A stretch of 64,000 nt of DNA, from contig JAGHUN010000012.1 of the NCBI GenBank assembly GCA_018064805.1, positions 1-64,000 on the forward strand, given 5' to 3'. Both the position numbers and the translations under genes were made by a program. The DNA is from Candidatus Colinaster scatohippi (GTDB taxonomy: Bacteria; Bacillota; Clostridia; Lachnospirales; Lachnospiraceae). This document shows positions 4 to 22,851 of this stretch, piece by piece; the stretch's first letter is position 1; every line of letters begins with the position of its first letter. The notes under the pieces are model-generated. The model was not told the DNA's origin. It was given only the letters and a program-made list of their open reading frames with translations, and did no database searches.

Positions 4-702
4 CTATAGCATGTTTTGCATTCTACCATAATAATATTTAGAAAAAGCTGTCTTCTTCAAATTCACACCATCAAGTACTTCCTTTATATAATCCGGAAGA
101 ATTTCATCATATTTTACTTCCAGAATGTGTCGGCCTGACGGCAACACCGGTACCATTTGTGGATATTCATCAAAAAACTCCTCCACATTATTACAGCAAC
201 CGATATTTCTGTCAAAGGTAACTCTCACATTTCCTAATGGATCAACAAAAGCAGTTCTCTCATATTCTACAATACAGACAGGCCGCAGCTGCCTATATAT
301 CATTTCAGAACTGATTTTATCTTTTAAATAAGAATTTCCATCATTTTCGTTTCTCTCACCACTTCTGAAAATTGTCCCTTTTTCAAGAAGTATATCTGCC
401 TCTTCTTTCGATATCTCTACAGACTTTTTAGCTGTAAAACCATGCTTTTTACTTTTAAGCTCAAGATGGATCATATCCGAATTATTATTATATGTCCTAA
501 TTCGGAACTTTTCTCTATCATCCGAACCATTCTCGTTTTCAAAAAGACAGGTATCATACATATCATCGAAATATACGCTTCTAACAACATATGAAGCCCC
601 CGTAATATGCGAATCAAGTGAAACAAGCGGAACAAGTGATGTCAGCAAATATGCAATTTGTTCTTCTGTTACAAAATATTTTTGTTCTACTCTGTAGTCC
701 AT
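4..702 (-). CDS. VTC domain-containing protein (polyphosphate polymerase-like)
   Basis: Intact 232 aa ORF. Motifs typical of VTC/triphosphate-tunnel proteins: EQKYFVT at N-terminus, VRSVYFDD, KFRIRTY, LELKSKKHGFTAKKSV, CIVEYERTAF, RVTFDRNI, LEVKYDEILPDYI. Confidence 0.85.
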   Translation of the reverse strand: MDYRVEQKYFVTEEQIAYLLTSLVPLVSLDSHITGASYVVRSVYFDDMYDTCLFENENGSDDREKFRIRTYNNNSDMIHLELKSKKHGFTAKKSVEISKEEADILLEKGTIFRSGERNENDGNSYLKDKISSEMIYRQLRPVCIVEYERTAFVDPLGNVRVTFDRNIGCCNNVEEFFDEYPQMVPVLPSGRHILEVKYDEILPDYIKEVLDGVNLKKTAFSKYYYGRMQNML

Positions 703-2225
703 ATCTTTGATAAATAATTCAATCGTTTGTTTAAAAAATCTGCAAGATAATCATATTCTGCTTTATCACCAATCATAAAGTTATTGCTTGCATACATATC
801 CTTCCATCTAATTGCGTCCATTGAAACTGATGGATGAAGCATATTGTAGTAAACAGTAATACTATTATCATTTAATTCATTTCCGTATGGTATAACTGCT
901 TTTCTAAATTCCTCACGTAGTATCTGCTGAAAATCATCTCTGTCATAAAGTTTGGCAAACCAGTTAGTTGAGGATGCCACTTCACCAAGCTTTGTCAGAT
1001 TACTATAATCTTCCTTACTGTATTCCATCCAATCAAGATAATTTCCAAGACTCATATCAAAATCCCAACCGGTCGAAATGCGTAGTCTTCCATCCACCAG
1101 ATCCGAATCCTTAAAGTAATATGTGCTTGAAACACCTGCATCATAATTCTTAAGTACTTCTTCAATAATATACCATTTTACAAAGCTTTCCATATCTATA
1201 TATTCCGATATGTCTTTTCCCGTATCCGGATTTATCCCATCCACCGACAATATAGCTTTTTCTATTTCATCAAAATAATTGGAAATATATTCTATTTCAT
1301 CAACGGAACAGTACTTTGGTGACTTAACGACAAAATACTCACCGCCATCAGTTGAAAAGCAGCTGACATTCTCGCCATATTCAGTCTCATATCTCTCAAC
1401 AAATTCACGCTCAATTATATATCCGCCTGTAATATCTGATGGATTCTGAAGCAGGTTCAGGGCCTTCTTTTTGGGGGTCTCATAGATATTTAATGAGTCA
1501 ACATTTGTCTTTTTATAAATCTCCTTCATTGTGGTTTCCAAATCGGCAATATCTATTCTGCCACGACCAACCTCTACGGCAGGCGCCAGATAATAATTAC
1601 CCATATAGTCACCATCTATATAAAGATCCGAAAACAGACCTGAATTGCTACCTGCTATATTTAATCGCTGCTCTAGCTGTCGCCCGATTTCATTACGCAG
1701 GCATGTCGGATCGGATGCATTGGCAATGAGCGCATAGCTATGACCCGCTGCCAGCCCATATATACTAACTTCCTTTTCAAAATATAAAGTAAAGGATTTT
1801 TTGTCCCAACTGTTCCAGGAATAATTACCTCTTCCTTTAATATATTTCAGTCCACCCCGGATAATAAGATCTCCATCCTTACTGTATACCCTCATTTTAC
1901 CGGGTTCTTTGTAATTCTTATCACTATATATATTATTAATATCTGATGACCTTGTATTTATAAAAATTGACGGTATATTTTCCGATTTCATTACTACCGG
2001 ATTAAGTGCTTTAACCAGTCGCTTCTTTTCAGTAGCATTCACATCTGCATAAGATGGCAGGAAAAGATATTGTCCATCTTCATTTTCATATATATTTATT
2101 GTTTCATTTCCTACTCTTATTCCTAATTCTATTTTCTCACTGCTACCTCGTACAACAATCAAAGCGCCGAGAACAATTACTGAAATTATCAGAGTAATCA
2201 ATTTAATGACTGCATATTTTTTCAT
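687..2225 (-). CDS. CotH kinase family protein, membrane anchored
   Basis: N-terminal TM segment, then CotH-like motifs (GRGNYSWNSWDKKSFTLYFEK, LRNEIGRQL, DGDYMGNYYL, STGWDFDMSLGNY). ORF begins directly after the upstream YfhO stop. Confidence 0.88.
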   Translation of the reverse strand: MKKYAVIKLITLIISVIVLGALIVVRGSSEKIELGIRVGNETINIYENEDGQYLFLPSYADVNATEKKRLVKALNPVVMKSENIPSIFINTRSSDINNIYSDKNYKEPGKMRVYSKDGDLIIRGGLKYIKGRGNYSWNSWDKKSFTLYFEKEVSIYGLAAGHSYALIANASDPTCLRNEIGRQLEQRLNIAGSNSGLFSDLYIDGDYMGNYYLAPAVEVGRGRIDIADLETTMKEIYKKTNVDSLNIYETPKKKALNLLQNPSDITGGYIIEREFVERYETEYGENVSCFSTDGGEYFVVKSPKYCSVDEIEYISNYFDEIEKAILSVDGINPDTGKDISEYIDMESFVKWYIIEEVLKNYDAGVSSTYYFKDSDLVDGRLRISTGWDFDMSLGNYLDWMEYSKEDYSNLTKLGEVASSTNWFAKLYDRDDFQQILREEFRKAVIPYGNELNDNSITVYYNMLHPSVSMDAIRWKDMYASNNFMIGDKAEYDYLADFLNKRLNYLSKIWTTE

Positions 2226-4877
2226 TTAATGCTTAAGTAATCCTTTTTTGTCTATAACTATATAAATTGCCAATATCGCTAATGTAACCAGGGTAACTAT
2301 CAGCCCGGCAATAAATCCCTTAGGAATAAAATACATATCTACCATTCCGGCTTCACCCGTTGGAATATACATAAGTGCACCATAAATACACAAGGGTTCT
2401 ATCTTTTTACCATTAATTCTTATATGCCAGCCTTCCTCATAAGGAATAGACGTAAATACACCATCACCGGATGGAACCTCAATTTTAAGATGTGATGAAC
2501 TGATTTTTGATACTGTAGCCTTTGAAGAATTCTGTCCACTGACAGCTATGTCATATATCTTAGAAAGCTCCTCAATATTCTCGGTTACAAATAATGGTTT
2601 ACCAAATTCCGGATTATCACCCTCAACTACTATCTTTATTGTCAATTTTTCCGATGTATCATAATTGCCCAGCTTAAGAACCTTATAACACGCACTGTTA
2701 CAGTATCCCGTAAGCAGTTCTCCATTTTTATAGATGACCATATTCTGCACAAGACCCGAAAGTCCATCTATATACATATACATTTCACCATTGCAAACCG
2801 GACTAATCTCATATTCACGGATAGCATTTCCATCCTCTGAATACTCATTTAGTGTAACATCAGCATCAACAAAAATATCCGCTTCTTCACCAATGACCCT
2901 TCCAAACAGCTCCTCCTGAAGTTTAAATGGATTCCTGTCTATTTTCTGAGGATTATCTATGTTGTCAACATCATCATATTTGAAGTTTCTTACACCAAGA
3001 GCAACCGGCAGCGCATAACTATTCTCATACATCATAACTCTGTCAGATGACAAGTCTCTTCGTAATACATATGCCGGGTGCATAATGGATTCATCTTCTG
3101 TCATCAGATACTTTACCCCAAGCATACTGTCCATTGTGACAGTATTGTCATTTCCATAATGTGTATATAGTCCATCATCATTATATCCACATCTCTGAAG
3201 GAAATAACGAACATATGTCATTCCAGCCGAACTATAATGCGTAACTCCATTGAAGCCATACATCATGCACTCATTCTGCTGTCTTGGAGTCTGGCTTTCC
3301 ATTCTATAAAAGGAACTATCCGCAGCCTTAACCTTGTTAACTGCCTCCTCTGTCCTTATAATTTTATCGCCGAATTCAGATACCTTCTCACATTTCATCG
3401 CAACAAACGGATATGTAAATGCTGCGTTTACTGTAAGTTCGCATACAAGCACACCCAGAATAGCAAGAACCGAAACCGTTCGCATCCTTAGTTTAACTGC
3501 AATAGCAATCAATCCTGCACCTATAACTAACAGTACCAAATTAATTAATATCATTTTTTTATTTACATACTCATAATCACCAAATGCAATTATTGCCATA
3601 ATTACTAAAATAATCACACCAACAACTGCAATCGAAGTAAGTGAAATCTGCTTACGTTCCTCTTTATCCGGCGAAATATCACTAATTTCTGCAAGAAAAC
3701 TACAAGCACACACAAGCATCATAAATACACATAAGGGTGCCTGACGATATGGATGTCCTGATGGTTCCATACCTGCATGCCAGAACAGGTTGACAATATC
3801 CAGGCAAAACGATACAAGGAAGATTATCCCCATAACTGCAAATGCCAGTTTCTCCCTGATTTCTATTTTATGGCTGGCAAAAAAGAGACCAAACAGAATC
3901 AAAATTATAATTCCGCAATACAACTGCGGAAGACCAAATCTTGGCTGTATGACATCATATGCTAAAAACAGGGTCTTACTAAGTACATCCGTGGGCATAA
4001 GATTCTTACCGGTTGTCTCAAGTCCCAGCTGAAAAATATCCTTAGGACTATTAAAGAGCTCAAGAAGGGTTGGTAACAGCACTGCCATATCAATTAATAC
4101 CGGAATAATAGTAGCAACAGCGACACGCAAAATCCCCTTTACAGGATGATTATCCTTTCTTACAAAAAGAATCATAAGTGTCCACAAGCCTACGAATATC
4201 AGCACCTGATATGTAATGTAATAATTGAAAAGCAGAAGTAGCATAATACTTATGCTATATCCAAGCATTTTAGTGTCGGGACCTATATTATTGCTTTCAA
4301 GCATCTTTTCCAGAAAATAAATTACAATCGGAACTGATATTACAACATCTGTCCACATCATATTCATACTCTGTGCAATAAGGAAACCTGAAAAAGCCCA
4401 TGCCACTGATACAATCCATATATATCTGCCTACTTTATAGCCGCGTTTTTGACATATATACCACTGTAGAAACATATCCATAATCACTGCACCAAGCACT
4501 AATGTTATCCCAATAATCAGACTTACAGCAATCGGAAAAGCCGGCTCATCAAAAAAACAGAATATCACAAAAAGTGGATTGCTTAGATAATATATGAAAA
4601 AACCAATAGTCCCTGAGCCAAGAGCTGTACTAAATGAATAAAACACATTATTCTGTCCGGCATATATGGTCTTCAAGTACGAATAGAAGTCAACATACTG
4701 TCGCTTCAAATCATACATAATCCATGTGTTCTCACCAAATGGAGCTATTCTGCATACTACAAGAAGTGCTATGTACATTAACAGAACAAGCACGCCCGCA
4801 ATGCAGGCGTGCCAATATTTATTTGTTACCTTCTCTGACAAGGTTAGACTCTTCATCATCTTCATCCTCATATTCAA
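2226..4877 (-). CDS. YfhO family polytopic membrane protein (GT-C-like), paralog 1
   Basis: 883 aa, multiple TM helices, YfhO-like blocks (MYDLKRQYVDFYSYLKTIYAGQNNVFYSFSTALGSGTIGF; HAGMEPSGHPYRQAPL; YNDDGLYTHYGNDNTVTMDSMLGVKYLMT). Start may be one of several downstream Met codons (as far as 4856). Confidence 0.88.
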   Translation of the reverse strand: MNMRMKMMKSLTLSEKVTNKYWHACIAGVLVLLMYIALLVVCRIAPFGENTWIMYDLKRQYVDFYSYLKTIYAGQNNVFYSFSTALGSGTIGFFIYYLSNPLFVIFCFFDEPAFPIAVSLIIGITLVLGAVIMDMFLQWYICQKRGYKVGRYIWIVSVAWAFSGFLIAQSMNMMWTDVVISVPIVIYFLEKMLESNNIGPDTKMLGYSISIMLLLLFNYYITYQVLIFVGLWTLMILFVRKDNHPVKGILRVAVATIIPVLIDMAVLLPTLLELFNSPKDIFQLGLETTGKNLMPTDVLSKTLFLAYDVIQPRFGLPQLYCGIIILILFGLFFASHKIEIREKLAFAVMGIIFLVSFCLDIVNLFWHAGMEPSGHPYRQAPLCVFMMLVCACSFLAEISDISPDKEERKQISLTSIAVVGVIILVIMAIIAFGDYEYVNKKMILINLVLLVIGAGLIAIAVKLRMRTVSVLAILGVLVCELTVNAAFTYPFVAMKCEKVSEFGDKIIRTEEAVNKVKAADSSFYRMESQTPRQQNECMMYGFNGVTHYSSAGMTYVRYFLQRCGYNDDGLYTHYGNDNTVTMDSMLGVKYLMTEDESIMHPAYVLRRDLSSDRVMMYENSYALPVALGVRNFKYDDVDNIDNPQKIDRNPFKLQEELFGRVIGEEADIFVDADVTLNEYSEDGNAIREYEISPVCNGEMYMYIDGLSGLVQNMVIYKNGELLTGYCNSACYKVLKLGNYDTSEKLTIKIVVEGDNPEFGKPLFVTENIEELSKIYDIAVSGQNSSKATVSKISSSHLKIEVPSGDGVFTSIPYEEGWHIRINGKKIEPLCIYGALMYIPTGEAGMVDMYFIPKGFIAGLIVTLVTLAILAIYIVIDKKGLLKH

Positions 4878-7458
4878 AGTAGTCCGCTTCTGTTATCCTA
4901 AGTCTGGCCACAAGCAGGATTATAAGAACAGATAATCCTGTTACACATATACCAAGAATTAACCCTTCCGGAATATATGTCATTTCTATCTCTATATTTT
5001 CGCCCGGTTCAAGCTCTACCATTTGTATTGCTTCCGTTACGGGTATATATATCAATGAATCATAGGCCTCTTTAGGTTGAACCTTAGTTCCTGCAACCTT
5101 AATCTTCCATCCCTTTTCAAATGGAATCGTTGTAAAGATTCCTATCTGACCGCTTATTTCATCCCCAACCGTATAAGCACTGTCAACAGTCATTTTAAGA
5201 TGAGAAGAACTTATTTTATCTACACTTGCAAATCTTGATGAGACAGCATTATACGCTGCTGCAAGTGCTTCTGTATTCTCTGTCATAAAAAGAGTGGCAC
5301 CTATCTCATCTGCTTCATCTGCCTTAATTCGAACATATATTGTCTCACCCTTTTCATAATATCCGAGATCTATAACCTTAAGGCAGGAATTATTGCCATA
5401 GTAGCTGATAAATTCATCATTGAGATATATTTCCATATTATCAAAGTCATCAACAATATCTGCAACATAGAAATACATATCGCCACTCATCGCAGCTGTC
5501 ACTTCATATTCAATTTCCGGTCTGCCGGATATTATTTCCCTCTCGATTGTTTCGGCCGGTTCAAATATCTCAACCAATTCACCTGCAAGTCGTGTATATA
5601 TCTCCTCCTGGAAAGAGAATGGATCCATACTCTCACCACTCATCTCACGATATACGCCGATTCCTATAGGTAAAGCATAGGGATTCCGATAAGCCTGAAT
5701 ATCTCCATCTACAACCAGCTCATAATCTTTATGCATTCTGCCGGCATGAGCAGCATCCGTAAGCAGATATTTTACACCCAGAATAGAGTCTGCCGTCTGT
5801 GTATTATCATACCCATAATCTGTATATAATCCATCATCGTTATAGCCCATTTTCCGTAACATATTACGGACATATACGAGTCCTGCAGAACTATAATGTG
5901 TAACGCCGTTATACATAAACATCATGCTGTCATTCTGCTGTCTTGGAGACCAGCTGTCCATTCTATAGAACGAGCCGTCCAAGGCCTTAACAGCATTAAC
6001 AGTTTTTTCAATAGAACTAATTGTTTCCGCAAACTCTGTCGCCGTCTCCTGCTGCATTGATTCCATTTTGTGAATATATACTGCATTGACACCAAGATCC
6101 GCAAACTGAACACATAACAGCATCATGCAGACTGCCATCGTCACAAGTCTCTTTTTTGACAAAAGAAGTAGTATAAGCAAAACAAAAACCAAAGCAAAAC
6201 CTGCATAGTTAATCCATATTTTCCACTTATACATATATGATGCCGGTATACTAAATGCATAATACATTGCAGCCAGTACGACACCAAGTGCAATAGCCAG
6301 TCGTGGCAGTGTTATTCCTTCACTAATCTCCTGAAGACTCCTGCAGGCACAAACAATCATTACAAATACACACATTATAGCCTGTCTGTATGGATAGCCC
6401 GAAGGCTCCATTCCGGCATGCCATATCAGATTAAGTTCCTCATTTACAAAAGATGCAACGAAGAAAGCCAGCAATATAAACATGGATAATTTCTCTGAAA
6501 TCTTTATCCTTTTATTAAGGAAAAAGAGGATAACCAAGACAAGCATAAGCATTCCACAGAATACCATTGGCGACCCCCAGTATATCTCAAGAGAATCATA
6601 AGAAAGAGAAAACAGCTTGCATACAACCTGACGAACCGAAATATCATTATGTGCAATCATCAGGCTCTCATCTGTTATATCCTTAGGACTATTTTTGAGT
6701 TCAAGGAAGGTTGGGATAAGTACTATAGCATCCAGTCCCGCACCGGCAACCGTAGCCATTCCAAGCCTAAAAATAGCCTGCGAAGGATTTTTTTCCTTAC
6801 GTGCTATCATCCTTATAATGAACCAGAAAAGTACAAATATAAGAACCATATATGATATATAGTAATTAAGGAAAAGAATTGCAGCTACCGACAGAATATA
6901 TCCCATCAGCTTGCCACCATCCAAAAGTCGCTCTGTCATTATCATAACAACCGGCATAAGAATGATAACATCAAGCCACATTATATTCATTGAATTGGCA
7001 ATTACAAAACCACAAAAACTGTATGTTACTGCGCAGAGATAGGATCCCTTACCACAATACTTCTGAAGAAATACATCCATTGCTGATGATGCACTGGCAA
7101 GCTTAAGGCCTATTACAATTGTAATAGCAAGCGGCATCAACTCATTTGGAAACATAACAATCAGTAGCAAAAAAGGACTTGCAAGATAATAAGTGCAGAA
7201 GCCTATTATTCCGGATCCCAGAGTTGTGCTGAACGAATAAAATACATTATTATCACCGGCCAGTATATGTCTGTAAAAGGAATAAAAATCCACATACTGA
7301 CGTTTCATATCATAGCTAACCCAAGTATTATCACCAAATGGTGTCATTTGACACAACCATACTACAATCGTGTACATAACAATTGTAATTATGCCTGACA
7401 CAATATAATGCGGTATATTTAGTTTTTTCTTCTCAGAATTAACAGCTACCATTTTCAA
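4819..7458 (-). CDS. YfhO family polytopic membrane protein (GT-C-like), paralog 2
   Basis: 879 aa, same conserved blocks as the downstream paralog (YDMKRQYVDFYSFYRHILAGDNNVFYSFSTTLGSGIIGF; HAGMEPSGYPYRQAIM). Confidence 0.88.
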   Translation of the reverse strand: MKMVAVNSEKKKLNIPHYIVSGIITIVMYTIVVWLCQMTPFGDNTWVSYDMKRQYVDFYSFYRHILAGDNNVFYSFSTTLGSGIIGFCTYYLASPFLLLIVMFPNELMPLAITIVIGLKLASASSAMDVFLQKYCGKGSYLCAVTYSFCGFVIANSMNIMWLDVIILMPVVMIMTERLLDGGKLMGYILSVAAILFLNYYISYMVLIFVLFWFIIRMIARKEKNPSQAIFRLGMATVAGAGLDAIVLIPTFLELKNSPKDITDESLMIAHNDISVRQVVCKLFSLSYDSLEIYWGSPMVFCGMLMLVLVILFFLNKRIKISEKLSMFILLAFFVASFVNEELNLIWHAGMEPSGYPYRQAIMCVFVMIVCACRSLQEISEGITLPRLAIALGVVLAAMYYAFSIPASYMYKWKIWINYAGFALVFVLLILLLLSKKRLVTMAVCMMLLCVQFADLGVNAVYIHKMESMQQETATEFAETISSIEKTVNAVKALDGSFYRMDSWSPRQQNDSMMFMYNGVTHYSSAGLVYVRNMLRKMGYNDDGLYTDYGYDNTQTADSILGVKYLLTDAAHAGRMHKDYELVVDGDIQAYRNPYALPIGIGVYREMSGESMDPFSFQEEIYTRLAGELVEIFEPAETIEREIISGRPEIEYEVTAAMSGDMYFYVADIVDDFDNMEIYLNDEFISYYGNNSCLKVIDLGYYEKGETIYVRIKADEADEIGATLFMTENTEALAAAYNAVSSRFASVDKISSSHLKMTVDSAYTVGDEISGQIGIFTTIPFEKGWKIKVAGTKVQPKEAYDSLIYIPVTEAIQMVELEPGENIEIEMTYIPEGLILGICVTGLSVLIILLVARLRITEADYFEYEDEDDEESNLVREGNK

Positions 7459-8202
7459 TCACTTCCCTACTTTTCGATTGATTTCACTCAAATCAGATAA
7501 TGCCCTTATTCCAATTCTTACTATTTTTGCAGGATTAATACTATTAATTCCCCCCTGCCTTGGTCTGAAGGATATAGGAACAAAGCGCATATTTATCCTT
7601 TTATTATTATTTATTTTTCCCTTGGCCATTTTACCCCAAATGCCAGTTAACGCAATATTAGTTAAACTATATCCTTCCGGAATATAGTCCATAGCAACTT
7701 TTAAGGATTCCGCCTTCATAAGTCTGTACGGTGTATTCACATCTTCTACTCTTACCTTGAATATAATCAGAACCACCAATCGTACAAAAGCGGAAATGAC
7801 CACTCTTGCTATTCCATCCTCACGCCTTTTTCTATTTCCTATCTGAACATCGTATTCTTTGCGCGCCTCGTAAAACTGCTCAAACTCAGACGCAAAGGTC
7901 TGTCCATCCGAATCGGTTTGAAAAATATACTCTGCACCTTTTTCAAGTGCATATTTATAGCCTGCATAAATACTTGATCCGTGCCCACCGTTTTTTTTGC
8001 TGATGACCTCCAAAAACTCTCTTTCTATTTTTTCGTTTTCACAAATTTCAAGAGTTTCATCACTACTGCCGTCATCTACAATCACAAGTCTTGAACGTCC
8101 ATCCGAATTGTATTTTTCTATTATTTCATACCACTCTTTTATTGTTGTTGCTATATTCTCTGCTTCATTATACGCAGGAATAACAATATATAAAGAATCC
8201 AT
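7459..8202 (-). CDS. Glycosyltransferase family 2 (dolichyl/polyprenyl-phosphate sugar synthase-like)
   Basis: GT2 N-terminus YIVIPAYNEAENI, VDDGSSDET, FQTDSDGQT; DPM1-like layout without C-terminal TM helices. Confidence 0.85.
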   Translation of the reverse strand: MDSLYIVIPAYNEAENIATTIKEWYEIIEKYNSDGRSRLVIVDDGSSDETLEICENEKIEREFLEVISKKNGGHGSSIYAGYKYALEKGAEYIFQTDSDGQTFASEFEQFYEARKEYDVQIGNRKRREDGIARVVISAFVRLVVLIIFKVRVEDVNTPYRLMKAESLKVAMDYIPEGYSLTNIALTGIWGKMAKGKINNNKRINMRFVPISFRPRQGGINSINPAKIVRIGIRALSDLSEINRKVGK

Positions 8203-8203
8203 A

Positions 8204-9184
8204 TTACAATCTAATTGCCTTGTGTATTTTCCTTGTGCATACAGGTGCCACTGTAAGTAGTATCAAATAAATCTTGTTTTTTACAGTCAACCTGCTATTA
8301 AACAGCATTCTTCCAAAGTTCTTCCTTAAATATCCGACTACATTTCTGTAAAATATATTATCCTTCTTCATTTGCGATATAGGAATATGAAGCATATAGT
8401 CCAGGCGCTGATATAGGGCAAATCTTTTGGCAACAGGGGCAAGGTTCGGATAACTGCCACCTATAAGCTTCTCTGCATAATCCGCATTATCCACAATATC
8501 TATAAATACCCTGCTAAAGTCTTCGCTGTCAGCTCTTCTGCTGTTACTCCCTATTCTATAGAAAACATGATAGCTTTGATTAGGAAGAATAACATATTCC
8601 GGTATTTTTTCAAGCATTTGCATAAGAAGGAAAAAATCCTCATTAAGCTTGCCTTCAGGAAATCTCAAGCCATCAAACAATGACACATCTGTCAGTCTTG
8701 TGCAAAAACTACAATCCCCACGATGCATAAGAAGTTCTTCTATCTGCCACAGATTAGTTACCACCATCACCTCTTTAGGAGGAATACATACATCCGGTCT
8801 TCTGTTTCCTGATATATCAATCTCATCCCTCGATATCTGCGCCATTGGTACATTGTACTTCTTAATGGCATTAAGCATTAACTCAACATAGTCACTGTCT
8901 ATATAATCATCACTATCTACAAATCCCAGATATTTTCCATTAGCATTATCAATTCCGAGATTGCGCGCACTTGACGAACCACCATTTTCCTTGTGGAACA
9001 CAACAATTCTTCCATCCTCTTTTGCAAGTTCATCACACACTGCTCCGGTACCATCAGTGGACCCATCATCTACAAGAATTATCTCAAGATTACTATAGGT
9101 CTGACCACATACCGATCTGACACATCTCTCAAGATATTCGCGCTCTATATTATAAATTGGAATAATTATTGTAACTAAATCCAT
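8204..9184 (-). CDS. Glycosyltransferase family 2
   Basis: VTIIIPIYNIEREYLERCVRSVCGQTYSNLEIILVDDGSTDGTG...GFVDSDDYI, canonical GT2. Confidence 0.92.
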   Translation of the reverse strand: MDLVTIIIPIYNIEREYLERCVRSVCGQTYSNLEIILVDDGSTDGTGAVCDELAKEDGRIVVFHKENGGSSSARNLGIDNANGKYLGFVDSDDYIDSDYVELMLNAIKKYNVPMAQISRDEIDISGNRRPDVCIPPKEVMVVTNLWQIEELLMHRGDCSFCTRLTDVSLFDGLRFPEGKLNEDFFLLMQMLEKIPEYVILPNQSYHVFYRIGSNSRRADSEDFSRVFIDIVDNADYAEKLIGGSYPNLAPVAKRFALYQRLDYMLHIPISQMKKDNIFYRNVVGYLRKNFGRMLFNSRLTVKNKIYLILLTVAPVCTRKIHKAIRL

Positions 9185-9190
9185 TCCCTG

Positions 9191-10432
9191 TTAATCCTTT
9201 AACTTTCCACTTGCCCAGAATCTTGGCTTTATTATCGGTGCAATAGACATTGGTCCGTCCTCTGCCACACGCATCTGACCGCTTTTAAGTCCTTCATAAA
9301 AGTCTATCACCCTGTCCGCTGCAACCTCTGCATTCCATTTAGTTATTATGGTATCATAGGCTGCCTTTCCAAACTGTGTAATCATATGAGGATTCTCAAA
9401 TAACCACACCACCTGCTCCAACATACTGTTATATGATCCCTCATGATACAGAAGGCCGTTTTGTTTATGCTCAATAAGATACTGCGCACATCCTGCTTCA
9501 TCATTCACGACTTCCGCGAGTCCTGCATTCATTCCCTCATTTACTACAGCTCCCCAGCCTTCCAAAAAGTTACTGGTAAAAATATGAATATGACTGCTCT
9601 CCATTATGTCACGAACCTTTTCAGGCCCCAAAAAGCCATGGAAAGTAATATGCTCGGCTATCATTTCATATTCTGCCATTTCCTTTAGTTCATCCTCCAA
9701 CGGACCTGCGCCTATCATATGAATATGAAATCTATATCCACGATTCGTAAGATCTGCGGCAAGCTTAACCATAAATTCAGGATGCTTTAACTCCAGAAAT
9801 CTTCCTGCCCATACAATCTGAATATTCTTGGCAGTAAGTACCGGTGGTTTTAATGGCAATTCCTCCTCAGCCTCAATATGAATTGTATCTATTTTGTCCT
9901 TATTCTTCCACAATGAAGCCGTATCATAATAGCTTCGTGTTGCAGGAAAATAACCAAACTTCAGCATCTTGCCCGGATACGCGCAAATAAGCTTATAATC
10001 CGAAGCAACAAAGGCTCCGTTACACAGAAGATATACGGGAGACTTTCTATATCTAATATGGTCTTTATATTTTCTCAATAAGCCTCTTGGCGAAATTGCC
10101 TTCCACTGACCTTCCCTGTAAAGACGCTCACTGATTCTAAGAACTATCTTCCCGGCCTTTAATCTGTCCTGAATTAGTGCCTCATCCTCAAGCCACCCCA
10201 CAAGCAACATATCACAATCATCAATTGCTTTTTTGGCAAGCTCCATATCCTCATAGCTGAGCACAACATAGGGATAGTCCTTAGGATTAACCGCCCATCC
10301 CATCTGTATGCGCTTCTCTTCCATTGGCTCAGTCTGAATAAAACAGTAACTGCTTCCAATCCTGTCATACATTGCCTCAGAAAAAGGAATCTGATGGTGA
10401 TTTATGTAGTTGGAGATCATAGTTATTTTCAT
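9191..10432 (-). CDS. Glycosyltransferase family 4
   Basis: Rossmann-type C-terminal block VWAGRFLELKHPEFMVKLA...TSNFLEGWGAVVNEGMNAG (E-x7-E region). Confidence 0.88.
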   Translation of the reverse strand: MKITMISNYINHHQIPFSEAMYDRIGSSYCFIQTEPMEEKRIQMGWAVNPKDYPYVVLSYEDMELAKKAIDDCDMLLVGWLEDEALIQDRLKAGKIVLRISERLYREGQWKAISPRGLLRKYKDHIRYRKSPVYLLCNGAFVASDYKLICAYPGKMLKFGYFPATRSYYDTASLWKNKDKIDTIHIEAEEELPLKPPVLTAKNIQIVWAGRFLELKHPEFMVKLAADLTNRGYRFHIHMIGAGPLEDELKEMAEYEMIAEHITFHGFLGPEKVRDIMESSHIHIFTSNFLEGWGAVVNEGMNAGLAEVVNDEAGCAQYLIEHKQNGLLYHEGSYNSMLEQVVWLFENPHMITQFGKAAYDTIITKWNAEVAADRVIDFYEGLKSGQMRVAEDGPMSIAPIIKPRFWASGKLKD

Positions 10433-11760
10433 AGCTCTGTTATCTTCGTATAAATTTCTACTAGTCTGTTATAGTTAATATCTGCATTATGCGTAAGTCT
10501 CGCGCGATTCATCGCTGCAGCTCCCAATTCAGAAGCAAGACCATCATCCTTCCAAATGTGAATAATATCATCAGCAAGGCCATCACTATTACATGGATCA
10601 AACAATTTGCCTTCTTCATCCTCAGTAATCATCGAAGGTATTCCACCTGCTCTCGAAGCAACAACCGGAACTCCCAGCAGCATTGCCTCACCCATTGAAT
10701 TAGGCGAGTTCTCTATCGATGATGGACATACATATGTATGACACTTCAGATACTCCTGCTTCATAGCTTCAGCGTCAAGTTTTCCAAGAAATTCCACCTT
10801 GTCCTCTAAATGATAGGAACTAATTAGAGTTCTTAAATACTTACCATAACCACTAATTTTTATTTTTTGCTTAAGTGTGTTATAAGCCGTTATATCTGCA
10901 CCTGCCACACGAATCTTTGCATCCGAAAAATATTCAAGGATTATCGGCATTGCCTCAAGCAGAATATGAAATCCCTTTAAAGGATAATCAGCCTGGCTAA
11001 CAAAAATTGTATGCTTATTACAGGTTGTCACATCCCAGGTACCGGAATAAAATGGTTCTCTCAGAGTCTCATTCATATAAAAATATGTAGCATCCGGATT
11101 AAGCTTACTTATAACGTCTCTGTCAAAGTCCGTACGACCGGTAACATTCGTGGCAAGCTTCAGTGCCTCTTTCTCCATCTCGCCACGCTCAAGGAATTTA
11201 GCCTGCTGTTGCGCAATATTGTCTCTTTTTATCAAATCCCTAAAGGTTCTCGAACTAACAATCTCATCCGGCAAATCTGCAGTGTATTCTTCTCCGCATC
11301 TGTATATTATGCCCTGAATACCGATAAGCACCTCCGGTACACATATACTTGAATCCTTTTGGGCTTCGTTTCTGCATTCATGTACAGCCTTCATCACCCC
11401 AAGTGTATGTCCGTATTCCGTTCCAAATACGTGGATTACATCCGGCTCATAGCTCTTAATTATAGAGTGGAATCTTGGCTCTAATTCCATACTGTAATTC
11501 TCCGGCTGATTTCTATCCTCATAATATCCATAGCATGTCACTCTGAAATTATTGCCAATTACCACTTCAGCCTTTGACTGTTTATCGCTGCTTGCAACAG
11601 GATATGCAATTGCCAGTTCGGATACGCTTCTGTACTCAATTGCTTCCTCCATCATACGTACAAGCGCTCCTGTAATCCAGCCTTCCTTATTACTTCCTTC
11701 TATTTTTAGTTTCTCTGCAACCAATGGCGGGAGCAGATTACATACCCACAAAACTCTCAT
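10429..11760 (-). CDS. Glycosyltransferase family 4
   Basis: VCPSSIENSPNSMGEAMLLGVPVVASRAGGIPSMI GT4 donor-binding signature; 4-nt overlap with the downstream gene. Confidence 0.88.
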   Translation of the reverse strand: MRVLWVCNLLPPLVAEKLKIEGSNKEGWITGALVRMMEEAIEYRSVSELAIAYPVASSDKQSKAEVVIGNNFRVTCYGYYEDRNQPENYSMELEPRFHSIIKSYEPDVIHVFGTEYGHTLGVMKAVHECRNEAQKDSSICVPEVLIGIQGIIYRCGEEYTADLPDEIVSSRTFRDLIKRDNIAQQQAKFLERGEMEKEALKLATNVTGRTDFDRDVISKLNPDATYFYMNETLREPFYSGTWDVTTCNKHTIFVSQADYPLKGFHILLEAMPIILEYFSDAKIRVAGADITAYNTLKQKIKISGYGKYLRTLISSYHLEDKVEFLGKLDAEAMKQEYLKCHTYVCPSSIENSPNSMGEAMLLGVPVVASRAGGIPSMITEDEEGKLFDPCNSDGLADDIIHIWKDDGLASELGAAAMNRARLTHNADINYNRLVEIYTKITEL

Positions 11761-12638
11761 CTTTTTTTCTTTCCATATATTAGGCTCTTCACCGCATTGT
11801 AGGCTTTAGAGAATCTTTTACTCTCAGCCAGCCTTGTTCTTAATCCGGCTCCCGAAATAACCATAATTCTCTTGTATTTTTTAGCCCTTTTTCCCATATA
11901 TTGTTCGGTTATTTCTATATGCTCATCTTCGGATTTCTTCCTGTTCTCAGCTGTTTCAGAAAAACCTCCACCTTCATATGCAGAGATAACCAAATCAATA
12001 TAAGAGGTTATTGCACCTAATTCATATATACTATACAGGAAATGTTCATAATCAGCTCTTACTCTGTATTTAAGATCATATCCCCTATCCTTGAACAACC
12101 GATCTTCATAAAAACACACCTGGTGACATGGAACATTTCTATATAAGGCGAACTCATTAAGGGATGGTGCAGAAGAAACTAGCGTCTCCGTCAGTCTGTT
12201 AAACTGATTTCCATAGAAAATATACGGTTTCTCCTGCTTTACATCTATATTCTCATCTATATAATCCGCTACTTTTCCAAGCGTTTGCTTATCATAAAAG
12301 CAATCGCCGCAATTCATAAAAATGACATATCTGTCATGTGCGCCCGGCAAGATCCGATCTGCATCCCATATGTGGTTAACAGCTTCGTTCATTCCATCAT
12401 ATATTCCTTTATCGCTTGTAGAATATATATCTGTTACCGTTGCTATTCTTCCTGAGAAATAATCAGAAGCCTTAAGTGCTTCAAGTGACCCATCGGACGA
12501 TTTACCATCTTTTATTATCACATGATAATTGTGATACTCCTGCCCATATATGCTATCAAGTGTATACTTAAGCTTATCTCCGGCATTAAAGCATACCACA
12601 ATTATTTCGAATTTTATTCTACATTCTTCTTTTCTCAT
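11757..12638 (-). CDS. Glycosyltransferase family 2
   Basis: IIVVCFNAGDKLKYTLDSIYGQEYHNYHVIIKDGKSSDGSLEAL. Track ORF begins at 12683; Met at 12638 (MRKEECRIKFEI) removes the overlap with the upstream gene. Confidence 0.85.
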   Translation of the reverse strand: MRKEECRIKFEIIVVCFNAGDKLKYTLDSIYGQEYHNYHVIIKDGKSSDGSLEALKASDYFSGRIATVTDIYSTSDKGIYDGMNEAVNHIWDADRILPGAHDRYVIFMNCGDCFYDKQTLGKVADYIDENIDVKQEKPYIFYGNQFNRLTETLVSSAPSLNEFALYRNVPCHQVCFYEDRLFKDRGYDLKYRVRADYEHFLYSIYELGAITSYIDLVISAYEGGGFSETAENRKKSEDEHIEITEQYMGKRAKKYKRIMVISGAGLRTRLAESKRFSKAYNAVKSLIYGKKKR

Positions 12639-12645
12639 AATTACT

Positions 12646-13776
12646 CTACGATAAATCTCTCTGATCCAGCCAACGGTGTTCATAGAAGAGCCAGCTCTTA
12701 TATGGCAACACTCTTACTCCGTCGCTACTCGCTGTCACCAAAAAATATGCAAAATAGATAATACCTACAACAAGAACAATTGCAATAAGTCGCTTTCTTT
12801 TCTGTGCATCCTTAACTGCCATTATTACATTAGGCACTAACAACACCTGCGTTGTTATAAGATAGTATCCGATTCTTGTAACAAGCGGAAGCCAAAAGCA
12901 GCATAAGTACAGTAATACCGCCATAATATTCAGATTAAGAAATGTTCTGTTGTCGACTCTGTCCTTAACTGCCTCCTTATAGCAGACCATACAGAGGATA
13001 ATAACAAGTATGCATCTCAATATAATTGGCGCATTTTCAAGCACCGAATGAGCCTCTTCAATATAATCCGTGTTCCTATATGACGGATACAGCTTAAGGG
13101 CGATATCCATAAGTCTGGTATTTAATATAAATACTACTGCACCGGCAACTGCCACCACGCCTATAAGCCATTTATTCCAATTACATCGTGCAAGCAGATA
13201 CATCGGAATAACTACCAGGACACTTTTATGAAAAAGAGACGCAAACAGGATAATTGCAATGAATTTAACTAAATTCTGCCAGTCAATGGCTGCTGTTACA
13301 AACTTAAGAGAATACAAGGCCATCGCCAGTACAAGATAATATCTTACTGTATTGAACGACCTGAAATATATTCCAAGAGTCATAAAAAGGAAAAAAGTCA
13401 AACCAAAGCAATCGCTTTGATCCTTAAATGCCTTCAAATACATTGCAACTATTGCAGCACCAAAGACGCCAAACATCAGAAGATAATTCTCACTTCCCGA
13501 AAGGGTATATAGGAGTCTGACAATAAAATTAAAGCCCGGCTCTGTAACTACAAATGCCTTAACAAATATCTCATGGCAGGTTACAACGTAATTACCATAA
13601 TCGTTTCCGACACCTCTTCTTAATGCAGCAAGCGCCGTCAGGATTAAGAAAATCGAAGCAAGCAATGCAAAATTAACAATGTTATTGCGACTGTATCTGC
13701 TTTCACCATATGCAATTGGCCTTACCTGGCACGCCAAAACTATCGTCAGCGCCGCAACTATAATATATAAAATCAT
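12646..13776 (-). CDS. EpsG/Wzy-like polysaccharide polymerase, polytopic
   Basis: 376 aa multi-TM protein with EpsG-like features (LRRGVGNDYGNYV..., FNTVRYYLVLAMALYSLKF, LFHKSVLVVIPMYLLA). Confidence 0.78.
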   Translation of the reverse strand: MILYIIVAALTIVLACQVRPIAYGESRYSRNNIVNFALLASIFLILTALAALRRGVGNDYGNYVVTCHEIFVKAFVVTEPGFNFIVRLLYTLSGSENYLLMFGVFGAAIVAMYLKAFKDQSDCFGLTFFLFMTLGIYFRSFNTVRYYLVLAMALYSLKFVTAAIDWQNLVKFIAIILFASLFHKSVLVVIPMYLLARCNWNKWLIGVVAVAGAVVFILNTRLMDIALKLYPSYRNTDYIEEAHSVLENAPIILRCILVIILCMVCYKEAVKDRVDNRTFLNLNIMAVLLYLCCFWLPLVTRIGYYLITTQVLLVPNVIMAVKDAQKRKRLIAIVLVVGIIYFAYFLVTASSDGVRVLPYKSWLFYEHRWLDQRDLS

Positions 13777-13810
13777 ACTTTGCCAATCCGTTTACACTAT
13801 TGCCTTCTTG

Positions 13811-14596
13811 TTATGCTTCCCTGATTCCCTTTTTTATAAGACTATAGGCCTCCTTAAAGCTCTTCTCTGATAAAAGCATTCCCTTGTGTCTTATCAAAAA
13901 TCTAAGTGCCATAGGAGTAGCCAGTCGGCCGTACAAATATCTGTACAGGACTCCCCTGTCATAGAAAAATTTATCCGTATATCCTTCAAACCAGGTACTG
14001 GGTCTTTTAACCTCTCTGCCTATGTTAATTGGAAGCGCGTATATTTTTAGTCCCTTTTTAAGGCACTCCTGAATAAACAGACTATCCTCGCCATTACTAT
14101 ATTTTGCACCACCGCCAAAAAGAAGATTAAATGTAATATTCTTTTTGTGTATACATTCTCTCCTACATGCAAAACTATAGGTTGGATAACGGCCACAATT
14201 CCATCTGTGAATCCTCATCTCGGAATCCGTATGATACGTGGCTCTGTCAGCTTCAACCTCCATATTGAAAAGAAGCATATCTGCCTGAGGACGAGTTTCA
14301 AATGCCTTAACAACTCTCTCAGCATATCCATCCTCATATACAATATCATCATCAGAAAACAGTATAATATCTGCATCAGCTCTCAAAAGTGCATTATTGC
14401 GGCTAAGCCCTACACCTCTTTCTTCAAAGGAAAAGCATCGAATCCTGCTTCCTTTGTAATCGTATTCAGAATATGCAAATTTATCACACTGATTAATTAT
14501 AATTGAGTCACACTGCAGATTCATTGTCTCTGCGACCGATTCGGTATTAACTTTTACACCTGACACTAATGTCTGAATTGTCATACGCATCTCCAC
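13811..14596 (-). CDS. Glycosyltransferase family 2 / GT-A fold
   Basis: GVGLSRNNALLRADADIILFSDDDIVYEDGYAERV: donor and DDD region of GT-A enzymes. Confidence 0.8.
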   Translation of the reverse strand: MEMRMTIQTLVSGVKVNTESVAETMNLQCDSIIINQCDKFAYSEYDYKGSRIRCFSFEERGVGLSRNNALLRADADIILFSDDDIVYEDGYAERVVKAFETRPQADMLLFNMEVEADRATYHTDSEMRIHRWNCGRYPTYSFACRRECIHKKNITFNLLFGGGAKYSNGEDSLFIQECLKKGLKIYALPINIGREVKRPSTWFEGYTDKFFYDRGVLYRYLYGRLATPMALRFLIRHKGMLLSEKSFKEAYSLIKKGIREA

Positions 14597-14608
14597 ATAT
14601 GGCTTCCT

Positions 14609-15532
14609 TTATTTATCCGAAAATGCCATACCCACAATCTTTACATCCTGTTTACCAAGAGTAAAGACAATTTTGTCAATTTTATCTGCCTTATCTCTTC
14701 CTCGGCAAATCAGTAATATAACACCCTTTCCGGCTCTGAGTTTTTCAAAAACCTCCATACTGAAAGAAAATTCTGAGGAATCAAACAGTATATACTCTGA
14801 CTCATCACCCAGAATATGCTCTGTATTAACGCTATACTCATCGGTTCCCTTTTTGCCCAAAAACGGAATCTCGGGATATCTCTGAAGCCAATCTCTTTCA
14901 GTATATATTCCATCGTCTATTGCACACATTATCATAATTAGCGACAATGCCAGAATTATCCCTATCATCCCACCTAAAAAGGCCGCATTTTTCTCTCTTG
15001 TATATGGATCATACGAAACCATATCCGAATCTGTCCAAACCTCAATCTTCTCAAGAATCGGAATTCTGTCGGCAAACATCGGGAGTGCCTGCTTATATGC
15101 TTCGGAAACCTTGTATACAAGATCTGCATCTGATCCCTTGCTGACTACAGTAAGAATTCTATAATCACCTATAATTTCACCGGTTATTGTCTCATATATC
15201 TGCTCTTTACTTACTCCCGGTAGAATTTCCAGAGCAGAATTAACAATTGGATCATCTCTTAAAATCGAATCCCATGTATAAGCATTAAAATAGTCCGCAC
15301 CATTAAAGGATGCATCATAATTAAAAAAGACATAATAGTCATTTCTTATCTCATACATCACATCCGGACCTATAACTTTACCATAGATTGAGTATGCCAT
15401 TACGCCAATAATAGCACCGGCTATTGCCGCTGCTATTACAATCCATAATTTATGTACAAACTGATTCCATAATCGTTTCAAATCAAGACGCTCCCTGCCT
15501 GCATCAATACCACTCATATGCATTGCCTCCAT
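14609..15532 (-). CDS. Wzz/CpsC-like chain-length determinant with short C-terminal cytoplasmic tail
   Basis: Two TM helices flank an extracytoplasmic region; N-terminal LKRLWNQFVHKLWIVIAAAIAGAIIGVMAYSIYG; C-terminal tail GKGVILLICRGRDKADKIDKIVFTLGKQDVKIVGMAFSDK resembles the end of BY-kinase domains. Confidence 0.72.
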   Translation of the reverse strand: MEAMHMSGIDAGRERLDLKRLWNQFVHKLWIVIAAAIAGAIIGVMAYSIYGKVIGPDVMYEIRNDYYVFFNYDASFNGADYFNAYTWDSILRDDPIVNSALEILPGVSKEQIYETITGEIIGDYRILTVVSKGSDADLVYKVSEAYKQALPMFADRIPILEKIEVWTDSDMVSYDPYTREKNAAFLGGMIGIILALSLIMIMCAIDDGIYTERDWLQRYPEIPFLGKKGTDEYSVNTEHILGDESEYILFDSSEFSFSMEVFEKLRAGKGVILLICRGRDKADKIDKIVFTLGKQDVKIVGMAFSDK

Positions 15533-16905
15533 TACTTTTTCGCTGCAGTTGTCTGATTACTGTCAACACCTTCCGTTGCTTCAGGACTTACAAGAATTTT
15601 AAGTGTTAAAAGCATCAGCTTTATATCAAGCCAGATGCTGTAATTCTCAATATAACTCAAGTCGAGCTTAAGCTTATCATACGGTGTTGTATTATATTTT
15701 CCATAGACCTGAGCATAACCTGCAAGTCCCGCCTTAACACGCATTCTGAATGCGAATTCCGGCATATCCTCCATATACTGCTTAATAATCTCCGGTCTCT
15801 CCGGTCGCGGTCCAATAAATGACATATCACCGACCAGAATGTTGAATAACTGTGGAAGTTCATCAATTCTTACCGCTCTGATAAACTTACCAATAGGGGT
15901 AATTCTTGAATCATTCTTGGTTGCCAGTCTTGCAACACCATCCTTCTCCGCATCTACTCTCATAGAACGGAACTTCATTATCTTGAATTCCTTTGCACCA
16001 ACCGTACATCTCACCTGTTTATAGAGCACCGGACCGCCATCATAGCATTTGATAGCAATTGCTGTAATCAGCATAATCGGTGATGTAACCACAGCAAGAA
16101 TGAGTGCACAAACAATATCAATACATCTTTTTGCAAATCTCTGCTCAACCTTTAGGCTATATTCCCTTGTAAGGAAAATTGGTGTATCAAAAAGATGAAC
16201 AGGTGACGAGCCCTTAACAATTACATCCGAAATCTTAGGACTCATATACACGCGCACATTATGCGCATATAAATATTTAAGCATTTTATTACGAATCTGT
16301 GCCGGAATATCCCAAAGCACTACTCCGTCATACGATTTACTTAACATCTCCTTATTAAGCTCGTTCTCGTCCTCACCCATATACATCAGCTTCTGTATAT
16401 TGTATTTATCCTTACGGGTAGCAAACTTCACCTCAATATCAGTTGTCGGATGATCACCATATATAAGCAGAAGCTTCCTCGGTGGAAAGAACAGCCTGTA
16501 TAAATTATTACCCAGAAATGTCCAAATACCCGCAAAGGCTATCTGTATAAATACCATGTAAAACATAGTATCAGAATCAAACAGTCGGACTTCCATAAGT
16601 GATATCTGAAAATAGCTTATAATTCCCACAATTACTATTGCAAAAACCTGAGAGAAAAATACATCCCACGGCTTCAAATATCCTATTTTCAGGCCGCCAA
16701 AGGTACTGCTGAAAAAGAATAACAGAACTGCATAGATTAATATCATAAGGATATGACCCTTAAAATACAGATTGACCTTCCATACATATGTACCAAGAAG
16801 TACTTCAATCCATTCATATGCATACATTCCTGTTAGAATAACCATTCCAAGCAGGCTCCACATTAATATAATTGTTCTTTTAATAGTTTCTTTTGCATTC
16901 ATCAT
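15532..16905 (-). CDS. Exopolysaccharide polyprenyl glycosylphosphotransferase (initiating sugar transferase)
   Basis: C-terminal bacterial sugar transferase domain: [28 protein letters not shown]...[21 protein letters not shown]...[24 protein letters not shown]. Track ORF begins at 16941; ATGATG at 16905/16902 fits the junction better. Confidence 0.93.
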   Translation of the reverse strand: [457 protein letters not shown]

Positions 16906-17660
16906 ATTCTTCTCAAAGTTGCCCTTACTGCCCATCCACAAAAATAAAATGCCGAAACAATCGGGTTTAGTTTTTCCATTTTACGATACAGAAACCAGAT
17001 TCTCTTAATTGCGAGCATTTTATTACTTGAAAGACTCTGTGCCGGTCTTCTGTATATCGCAAGAACCTCATCAAGTCCATATGCATTTACACCTGTACGT
17101 AATATCTGCCACCAGGTAGCAGTATCTTCACTTGCCACAAGTGGCATATGAATCAACCTTATATCTATTTTTTCTGTATCAAACATTGTCGTTGTCGTAA
17201 AGATTACTGTACGCGACAAGGCTTTTTTATATGTAAGTACCTCAGGAACCCTTACATATCTCCCTGTTCCGTTGGCATCTGCATCACCGAATTCATAGCT
17301 TGTAAAAGAGAACGCAGCATCCCTTTGTTCCATAAATGTTAACTGCTTTTCAAGCTTATCCGGCATCCAAACATCATCTGCATCAAGAAATGCAACAAAT
17401 CTTCCGGTCACCTCATCAAGACCTCTGTTCCTTGCTCCTGCCGCACCGTTTTCATTCTCATCAAAAAGAATTATTTTAATCCTTCTGTCAAAATCCGGTG
17501 AATTCATAAGGGCCACAAGTTTTTCACGCGTTCCGTCTGTGGAACCGTCTTCAACCAGAATCCACTCCCAATCCGTATACGTCTGTGACATAACCATATC
17601 GATTGTATTATCTATGAAGTTAATCGCATTATAAACCGGTGTTACTATACTTATCATCAA
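16902..17660 (-). CDS. Glycosyltransferase family 2
   Basis: ISIVTPVYNAINFIDNTIDMVMSQTYTDWEWILVEDGSTDGTREKL...FLDADDVW. Confidence 0.92.
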   Translation of the reverse strand: MMISIVTPVYNAINFIDNTIDMVMSQTYTDWEWILVEDGSTDGTREKLVALMNSPDFDRRIKIILFDENENGAAGARNRGLDEVTGRFVAFLDADDVWMPDKLEKQLTFMEQRDAAFSFTSYEFGDADANGTGRYVRVPEVLTYKKALSRTVIFTTTTMFDTEKIDIRLIHMPLVASEDTATWWQILRTGVNAYGLDEVLAIYRRPAQSLSSNKMLAIKRIWFLYRKMEKLNPIVSAFYFCGWAVRATLRRI

Positions 17661-17683
17661 TTATAACCATTATGACATCTATG

Positions 17684-18622
17684 TCAGATTTCTTCTTTCA
17701 CAAGATACTTAGGTCTGTTCTTAACCTCAAGATAGGTCTTGGACAGATACTGTCCCATTATACCCATACAAAGTAGCTGCACACCGCTTACAAGAGATAT
17801 AATACATACCATCGACTGCCAACCGGGTGTCGGATCAGACCAGAAGAATGACCTGACAATTATAAAAATAATCAGAATAAATGCCAGGAAGCAGAACAAT
17901 ACGCCTAAATAAGATGCAAGTGCCAGGGGTGCCGTTGAAAAAGCAACTATGCCTTCTAAGGAATACATAAGCAATCCCCAGAAATTCCATTTGGTCTCGC
18001 CCTTAACACGTTCAACATTCTCAAATTCTACCCATTTAGTGCTGAAACCAACCCAACCAAATATTCCTTTACTAAAGCGATTATATTCTCCCATTGCCAA
18101 TATCGCATCAACAACAGGTCTTGTCATTAGCCTGTAATCACGAGCCCCGTCAACAATATCCGTCTTGCTTATTTTATTCATAAGCTTATAAAACTGTCTT
18201 GCGAAGAAGCTTCGAATTGGCGGCTCACCCTTACGGCTTACACGTCTTGTTGCTACCGAATCATATCCTTCATCGATATACTCAAACAGTGTAGGTAAGA
18301 GTGACGGTGGATCCTGTAAGTCAGCATCCATCATTACTACATAATCGCCCTTGGCCTTCTGAAAGCCGGCATAAATCGCTGCTTCTTTTCCAAAATTCCT
18401 GGAAAAACTAATGAGTTTAACACGGCCATCCTTTTCGTTCAGTTTTTTCACCTCTGCGACTGTTCCGTCTTTTGAACCGTCATCTACATAAATTACCTCA
18501 ACATCCATTTCACGAGACGCAAAGAATTCTTCGTTTTTCATCAGTTCCTCATAAAAATACGGGACATTCTCTTCTTCGTTAAAGCATGGAACAACAACAC
18601 TTAGAAGCATCCTAACCTCCAT
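17684..18622 (-). CDS. GtrB-type glycosyltransferase family 2 (polyprenyl-phosphate glycosyltransferase)
   Basis: LSVVVPCFNEEENVPYFYEEL...VDDGSKDGT...DADLQDPP; two C-terminal TM helices and GIMGQYLSKTYLEVKNRPKYLVKE ending typical of GtrB/ArnC-like proteins. Confidence 0.92.
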   Translation of the reverse strand: MEVRMLLSVVVPCFNEEENVPYFYEELMKNEEFFASREMDVEVIYVDDGSKDGTVAEVKKLNEKDGRVKLISFSRNFGKEAAIYAGFQKAKGDYVVMMDADLQDPPSLLPTLFEYIDEGYDSVATRRVSRKGEPPIRSFFARQFYKLMNKISKTDIVDGARDYRLMTRPVVDAILAMGEYNRFSKGIFGWVGFSTKWVEFENVERVKGETKWNFWGLLMYSLEGIVAFSTAPLALASYLGVLFCFLAFILIIFIIVRSFFWSDPTPGWQSMVCIISLVSGVQLLCMGIMGQYLSKTYLEVKNRPKYLVKEEI

Positions 18623-18624
18623 AA

Positions 18625-20426: not shown

Positions 20427-20530
20427 ATCTGTCTCCCGAGAAGTTTACCTTCTCTTTCTCGATAACACATAATGAGTTATTTTACCATAAATATGGATTA
20501 TTGTCTAATTTAGCAATGCTTTTGCGGTAT

Positions 20531-21604: not shown

Positions 21605-21725
21605 GAAAACTATCTCCTTACTTTTTCTGTTTTATCATCTTTTTACTGTAAATAGCTTAGCCTCTGAATTCCTGCAATTTATAATATGCCATCAACCAAT
21701 CGGCTGATGGCATTCATAATATCTA

Positions 21726-22721: not shown

Positions 22722-22758
22722 TTATATCCCCCTGATTATATCACATTCTTCTAATCAT

Positions 22759-22788: not shown

Positions 22789-22851
22789 TATTCCGGACGG
22801 ATAAATCCAACCAAAATTAGCAATGGTTTCAGGACTTATATTTTAAAAAGC

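Follow-up and report, generated by a model that had tools for sequence, protein, structure and literature searches.

Why are genes for sugar transfer, a kinase and a putative polyphosphate polymerase packed into one operon? The question is raised by the beginning of the window, a stretch of 64,000 nt of contig JAGHUN010000012.1 from the gut bacterium Candidatus Colinaster scatohippi (Lachnospiraceae; assembly GCA_018064805.1), where genes for a GT2 glycosyltransferase, two YfhO-type membrane proteins (YfhO-2 and YfhO-1), a CotH-like kinase and a VTC-domain protein follow one another. The reading that we prefer, with moderate confidence, is an operon whose products modify a glycan or glycoprotein of the cell surface, built of two modules: a Pgf-like glycosylation set and a VTC-DUF4956-CotH set for phosphate chemistry. 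Each single family is known. The original prediction knew of no characterised pathway combining all five, but the CotH-VTC-DUF4956 part has already been described in Pel loci (PMC7112168, PMC12345266).

The presence of five abutting or overlapping genes on the minus strand, as originally predicted, was confirmed by open reading frames and by Pfam searches, in which all five scored far above the curated cut-offs (Table 1). No nucleotide separates GT2 from YfhO-2 or YfhO-1 from CotH (0 nt at both junctions), CotH and VTC overlap by 16 nt, and YfhO-2 and YfhO-1 by 59 nt when counted from the first in-frame TTG of YfhO-1. In-frame ATGs of YfhO-1 at 4871, 4865, 4859 and 4856 would make this overlap shorter, and the true start likely lies slightly downstream of the TTG. 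These junctions, together with an order kept in relatives, support the tight coupling. A terminator-like 11-bp hairpin, rich in GC and followed by a weak T tail, is seen at 4813-4789 (minus strand), just past the YfhO-2 stop and within the start of YfhO-1; it is possibly an attenuator, or chance. The Rfam search of the window gave no match, and promoter-like sites in the window did not exceed chance level.

Position 1 of the window is base 1 of its contig (C51), and the first 101 nt of another contig of the same genome, C1 (locus L087), are identical to this end on the reverse strand. DUF4956, suspected from the start to lie just past position 1, was found in a single copy in the genome, at base 117 of C1. 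There VTC is followed after about 15 nt by DUF4956 and then by a YdjC-type deacetylase gene overlapping it by 1 nt. Further on come a PgfS-like GT2 on the opposite strand and genes for a radical SAM protein, PseB, a secreted transglutaminase-like protein of 1469 aa and an aminotransferase of DegT type. The contigs were joined because of the exact overlap and the same gene order in relatives, and with DUF4956 and YdjC next on C1, it is the end of the contig, not biology, that truncates the block. DUF4956 of the window genome is 71% identical to that of G007, a relative. The open reading frames marked 'k6' on the locus maps were rejected as antisense frames over DUF4956 or VTC.

The arrangement was then followed through a survey of 61 genomes. 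Among the 60 relatives, YfhO, CotH, VTC, DUF4956 and YdjC stand in that order in three of the same genus (G004, G007 and G012); the locus of G009 is truncated by a contig end, and G022 differs in having YfhO behind DUF4956. In the 80 named loci nearest to the window VTC, YfhO lies directly ahead of CotH-VTC-DUF4956 in seven others (L089, L091, L094 (Butyrivibrio), L095, L098, L100 (Candidatus Colinaster equi) and L111 (Butyrivibrio)), so the adjacency is not unique to this genome. Three of these loci were treated as the same as those of surveyed genomes, on matching gene content, and counted once (L089/G007, L091/G004, L100/G012). All seven genomes are of Lachnospiraceae/Butyrivibrio type.

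The junctions are kept as well. CotH and VTC overlap by exactly 16 nt in the window, L091, L092, L095, L098 and L100 and by 13 nt in L088, L094 and L111, and are separated by a short gap in L089, L090 and L115; VTC and DUF4956 overlap by 4 nt wherever the junction can be read in the seven other YfhO-CotH loci. Pairwise identity among the eight YfhO loci is 41-64% for VTC and 39-60% for CotH (medians: VTC 48%, CotH 44%, YfhO 46%), and proteins as diverged as VTC and CotH indicate that the arrangement is long-lived. Eight VTC-YfhO pairs within 10 kb were observed, in 5 of the 61 genomes, against 0.74 expected under uniform scatter. As this count is inflated by shared ancestry, the same order and overlaps across proteins of about 45% identity are the stronger evidence. 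The window VTC belongs to a supported clade of 13 rows in the VTC tree (SH-aLRT 98), eight of them with YfhO; of the other five, three are on contigs that stop in CotH or VTC or close to them. In L051 and L142, YfhO is also beside VTC but elsewhere in the tree, and this link is a separate association. Tandem arrays of about 3-5 YfhO genes occur in relatives (G019:C78 23402-36412, G011:C42 8837-16220 and G023:C1 200001-211706).

Degenerate active sites would have argued against a phosphate function; instead, the catalytic residues of both VTC and CotH are intact by alignment. R67, R69, K83, R149 and R160 of the window VTC align with R264, R266, K281, R361 and R373 of yeast Vtc4, which have catalytic roles in its tunnel. 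Across 66 relatives, R67, R69, E81, K83, R149, R160, E195, K197 and K222 are invariant and K8 is kept in 65, with one gap. Thus, the basic tunnel residues and the metal-binding Glu of VTC polymerases are present. The AlphaFold model of VTC (pLDDT 93) gave yeast Vtc4 (3g3r/3g3q) as the top Foldseek match, with a TM-score of up to 0.77; the top matches are Vtc4 structures with polyphosphate or an ATP analogue, and Vtc4 outranks tripolyphosphatases and other tunnel enzymes. No membrane helix is predicted in VTC. Judged from its family, it probably makes polyphosphate.

The CotH profile matches the structure of Bacillus cereus CotH (5jd9) at 6.5e-8. D362 and D388 align with the aspartate pair of that protein, spaced 23 apart like D228 and D251 of B. 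subtilis CotH, mutants of which are inactive (PMC7821199). The ATP lysine K142 is found in 66/66 relatives and both D362 and D388 in 63/66. Family membership suggests kinase activity, and a single N-terminal membrane helix (residues 6-24) predicts that the kinase domain lies outside the cell.

The partners of VTC were counted in 132 loci, mostly of Clostridia; as the loci had been picked by VTC and not by the partner genes, the counts are not circular. In 131/132, DUF4956 is encoded at most 600 nt away on the strand of VTC, and CotH is beside 91. In the reverse search from DUF4956, nearly all matches were beside VTC; the six of 54 that were not are weak or on contigs without a VTC match. The adjacency and the reverse search make VTC-DUF4956 an essentially inseparable core, with CotH a frequent partner and YfhO one optional partner among several. 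VTC-DUF4956(-CotH) is therefore a module in its own right that several glycan loci have recruited; the triad is spread over the Clostridia, and one case each is labelled Bacteroidales and Spirochaetes. In 36 other triad loci, the most frequent neighbours are glycosyltransferases. A general tie to deacetylated cationic glycans, suggested by Pel and YdjC, was discarded, as no deacetylase is among the 25 commonest neighbour families of those loci. In most of a deep VTC clade, CotH is replaced by the carbohydrate-binding protein Cthe_2159, often with a two-component system (e.g. L037:12932-16016). Cthe_2159 without CotH is beside 16 of the 132 VTCs and is possibly a second effector of the module.

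DUF4956 is predicted to have membrane helices and an ACT-like C-terminal domain (model pLDDT 77, moderate), an architecture also reported for SIR_1592 (PMC12345266). The charges of the loops are consistent with five helices and a C-terminus on the inner side. This charge bias places the invariant R92 and R94 and the conserved K98 on a predicted cytosolic loop, near the presumed position of VTC, and a PDB search with the membrane part of the model gave no structural match; a conduit role based on basic membrane residues accordingly has no structural support. The pair resembles the yeast VTC complex in having a tunnel polymerase fold with its catalytic residues and a membrane protein as constant partner. 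It differs in being encoded by two separate genes and in the membrane protein itself, whose modelled membrane part matched no solved structure and which carries the ACT-like domain.

For the glycan half, the known set that appears closest in models and layout is pgfS-pgfM1-pgfE-pgfM2 of Streptococcus mutans, the products of which modify surface adhesins (PMC5856776). GT2 matches the NCBIfam models PgfS (1.5e-12), ArnC (PRK10714; 2.7e-11) and PpgS (5e-10), all below the equivalog cut-offs; its best solved-structure match is ArnC (9e-8), and it has no C-terminal membrane helices. It is a candidate DPM1/PgfS-like polyprenyl-phosphate sugar synthase. YfhO-2 (PgfM1 3.5e-76, PgfM2 4e-73; 14 predicted membrane helices) and YfhO-1 (1.6e-66 and 3e-49; 13 helices) are candidate GT-C-type membrane glycosyltransferases, and sugar loading and transfer by GT2 and YfhO may be expected from these families. 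As in Pgf, a GT2 precedes two large YfhO-type proteins that match the PgfM1 and PgfM2 models, a sugar-nucleotide enzyme stands between the YfhO genes in G004 and G007, and a full-length PgfS-like GT2 is near the operon. The scores are far under the equivalog cut-offs (best 257 bits against 1400 for PgfM1 and 247 against 1500 for PgfM2; for PgfS, 281 against 500, by the GT2 gene adjacent to the operon). PseB takes the place of the UDP-glucose epimerase, a radical SAM gene precedes the sugar enzyme, CotH-VTC-DUF4956-YdjC follow, and no adhesin gene is seen. By sequence the system is Pgf-like, not Pgf.

In G004 and G007 (L034/L038), the order is GT2-YfhO-radical SAM-PseB-YfhO, one radical SAM gene more than in Pgf; the sugar enzyme of the window genome is encoded downstream, on C1. 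PseB is above its cut-off in the window genome, as are PseC and PseI downstream in G007. PseB, PseC, PseI and a CMP-sugar synthase-type gene are seen by the operon (L087:2838-4922; L089:13324-20692; L168:8651-9346), and the neighbourhood therefore probably makes a pseudaminic-acid-type sugar. A radical SAM/SPASM protein accompanies these genes. The full-length PgfS/ArnC-like GT2 lies on the opposite strand directly past YdjC (L087:1788-2705); a GT2 gene of similar size, on the same strand, is at that place in L089, L091, L095, L098, L100 and L119. The combination of GT2, YdjC deacetylase and GT-C recalls the aminosugar decoration of lipid A in Francisella (NaxD). The secreted transglutaminase/Big_2 protein of about 1470 aa encoded after the operon (L087:4977-9386; a similar-size open reading frame is in L100:13831-18258) is a possible substrate.

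In the scheme that we propose, the cytosolic step would be the loading of polyprenyl phosphate with a sugar by GT2, YdjC may deacetylate the polyprenyl-linked sugar, and the two YfhO enzymes would move it to an acceptor outside. In the second module, VTC, bound to DUF4956, would use ATP at the inner face of the membrane to make polyphosphate or a related phosphoanhydride, and on the other side membrane-anchored CotH would phosphorylate the glycan or its carrier protein. With VTC predicted in the cytosol, DUF4956 in the membrane and CotH outside, the three co-encoded proteins may form a route by which phosphate is transferred through the membrane for surface polymers or glycoproteins. That the phosphate used by CotH comes from VTC-DUF4956 is speculative, as is the nature of the acceptor. 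The stronger version, a split bacterial VTC complex that passes polyphosphate through the membrane as phosphoryl donor of CotH for surface glycans or glycoproteins, appears doubtful to us.

Published and newly found triads place the phosphate module in a wider frame. CotH, a polyphosphate polymerase, DUF4956 and DUF4832 have been noted as accessory genes of Gram-positive Pel loci (PMC7112168), and S. intermedius mutants lacking the CotH or DUF4956 homologue differed in the amount of Pel and in aggregation (PMC12345266). The three contiguous genes in the window and L087 have the order of SIR_1594-1592, and a glycan-active enzyme is next in both, a DUF4832 hydrolase in Pel and the YdjC deacetylase here. 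The partners here are YfhO and GT2, and PelG is missing: it is absent in 57/61 genomes, including the window genome (75% complete), G004, G007, G012, G022 and G032 (PelF was not searched), and on a different contig from VTC in the other 4. The triad is thus not confined to Pel loci, contradicting the statement of a 2025 study that its synteny was not found outside them (PMC12345266). The NELoc-2 region of Clostridium perfringens has adjacent genes for VTC, a protein of about 225 aa and CotH, with no named pel gene next to them (PMC2879425). It continues with a protein of about 700 aa, a HEAT protein and a glycosyltransferase, without YfhO. The same order, VTC-DUF4956-CotH-~720 aa-HEAT-GT, is found in L065, L075, L077 and L079 with DUF4956 in the middle; by this match, the 222-226 aa 'tubulin/FtsZ GTPase' genes of NELoc-2 are probably mis-named DUF4956 proteins.

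Several points weigh against the two-module reading. YfhO is beside only 10/132 VTC loci, and the two remaining rows of the VTC clade, L088 and L090, have CotH-VTC-DUF4956 without YfhO or YdjC; the phosphate module can thus do without the glycosylation module. VTC and CotH distances correlate above the null maximum (0.28 against 0.11), which favours the reading, but the correlation is weak. Deletion of the VTC homologue in S. intermedius gave no reported change in Pel or aggregation (PMC12345266), neither an acceptor nor a phosphorylated product can be named, and the window genome, a draft of 75% completeness, encodes PPK1 elsewhere. Glycan decoration and phosphate chemistry were originally suggested to be linked in one system; the link is still plausible, and the neighbour counts with L088 and L090 show the halves best as modules joined in this lineage. 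These loci, the 16 Cthe_2159 pairs lacking CotH, and triads beside GtrA/WcaJ/LCP exopolysaccharide loci, a hydrogenase cluster, ThrRS or nothing recognisable would also suit a self-standing envelope module that is merely co-transcribed with the glycosylation operon here and acts on something else. Such independence appears rather unlikely, given the order and overlap lengths kept across proteins of about 45% identity, the glycosyltransferases that are the commonest triad neighbours elsewhere too, and the published Pel triads, two members of which change Pel (PMC7112168, PMC12345266).

The presence of PPK1 bears on two further ideas. VTC is not the sole polyphosphate enzyme of the cell and is probably not needed for storage, which speaks against teichoic acid glycosylation of the CsbB/YfhO type combined with polyphosphate synthesis for phosphate storage. 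The analogy drawn originally holds for the shared GT2 and YfhO families, for the GT-A plus YfhO GT-C logic of CsbB/YfhO/GtcA (PMC8035078) and for a GtrA flippase gene elsewhere in the genome. It fails on two YfhO genes coupled to kinase and VTC genes, which with a sugar-nucleotide enzyme and a PgfS-like GT2 fit the Pgf layout. By models and layout Pgf appears the better match, with no CsbB/YfhO model among the families listed and no head-to-head comparison; the storage explanation is improbable. A regulatory or hydrolytic tunnel enzyme (tripolyphosphatase-like), which together with the DUF4956 ACT domain acts as a sensor of phosphate or nucleotide and controls CotH or the output of polymer, could be read from the predicted membrane bundle with its ACT-like cytosolic domain, from R92, R94 and K98, and from S. 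intermedius mutants that changed Pel amount and aggregation and abolished neither (PMC12345266). By structure and by sequence VTC is nearer to Vtc4 than to any other tunnel enzyme, all residues aligned with the Vtc4 tunnel are invariant, and we hold this explanation to be unlikely. The two-module operon is the reading that we retain.

Table 1. Positions of the operon genes, their continuation on contig C1 and the neighbouring genes
Feature	Position	Strand	Remarks
VTC	4-702	minus	232 aa, predicted soluble; Pfam PF09359, E=1e-40
CotH-like kinase	687-2225	minus	512 aa; Pfam PF08757, 8e-28
YfhO-1	2226-4877	minus	883 aa from first TTG; PF09586, 2e-136
YfhO-2	4819-7458	minus	879 aa; PF09586, 7e-155
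GT2	7459-8202	minus	247 aa; PF00535, 1e-16
Overlap with start of contig C1 (L087)	1-101 of window	no strand	exact 101-nt end match
DUF4956	L087 117-791		operon continuation on contig C1; open reading frame and family search
YdjC deacetylase	L087 791-1678		operon continuation on contig C1; open reading frame
Upstream exopolysaccharide locus	8204-24285	minus, except GDSL gene	glycosyltransferases, Pfam; context, outside module
EpsG-type polymerase	12646-13776	minus	Pfam
Initiating sugar transferase	15532-16941	minus	Pfam
GDSL gene	22852-24285	plus	Pfam

The genes upstream of the operon look like a Wzy-type exopolysaccharide cluster. Two pairs of an MBOAT acyltransferase with an AlgX-like or GDSL hydrolase are found in the window at 26216-28839 and 36898-39644; such pairs are typical of polysaccharide O-acetylation.

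The CotH-VTC-DUF4956 triad is thus not a Pel speciality but an envelope module across Clostridia, and DUF4956, a family of unknown function, gains a firm partner in VTC. CotH kinases outside spores are apparently secreted or membrane-anchored, where ATP is scarce, and their phosphoryl donor is an unsolved problem. That a protein with a polyphosphate-polymerase fold forms an almost inseparable pair with a membrane protein, next to the kinase gene in most of these loci, suggests a testable answer to it.

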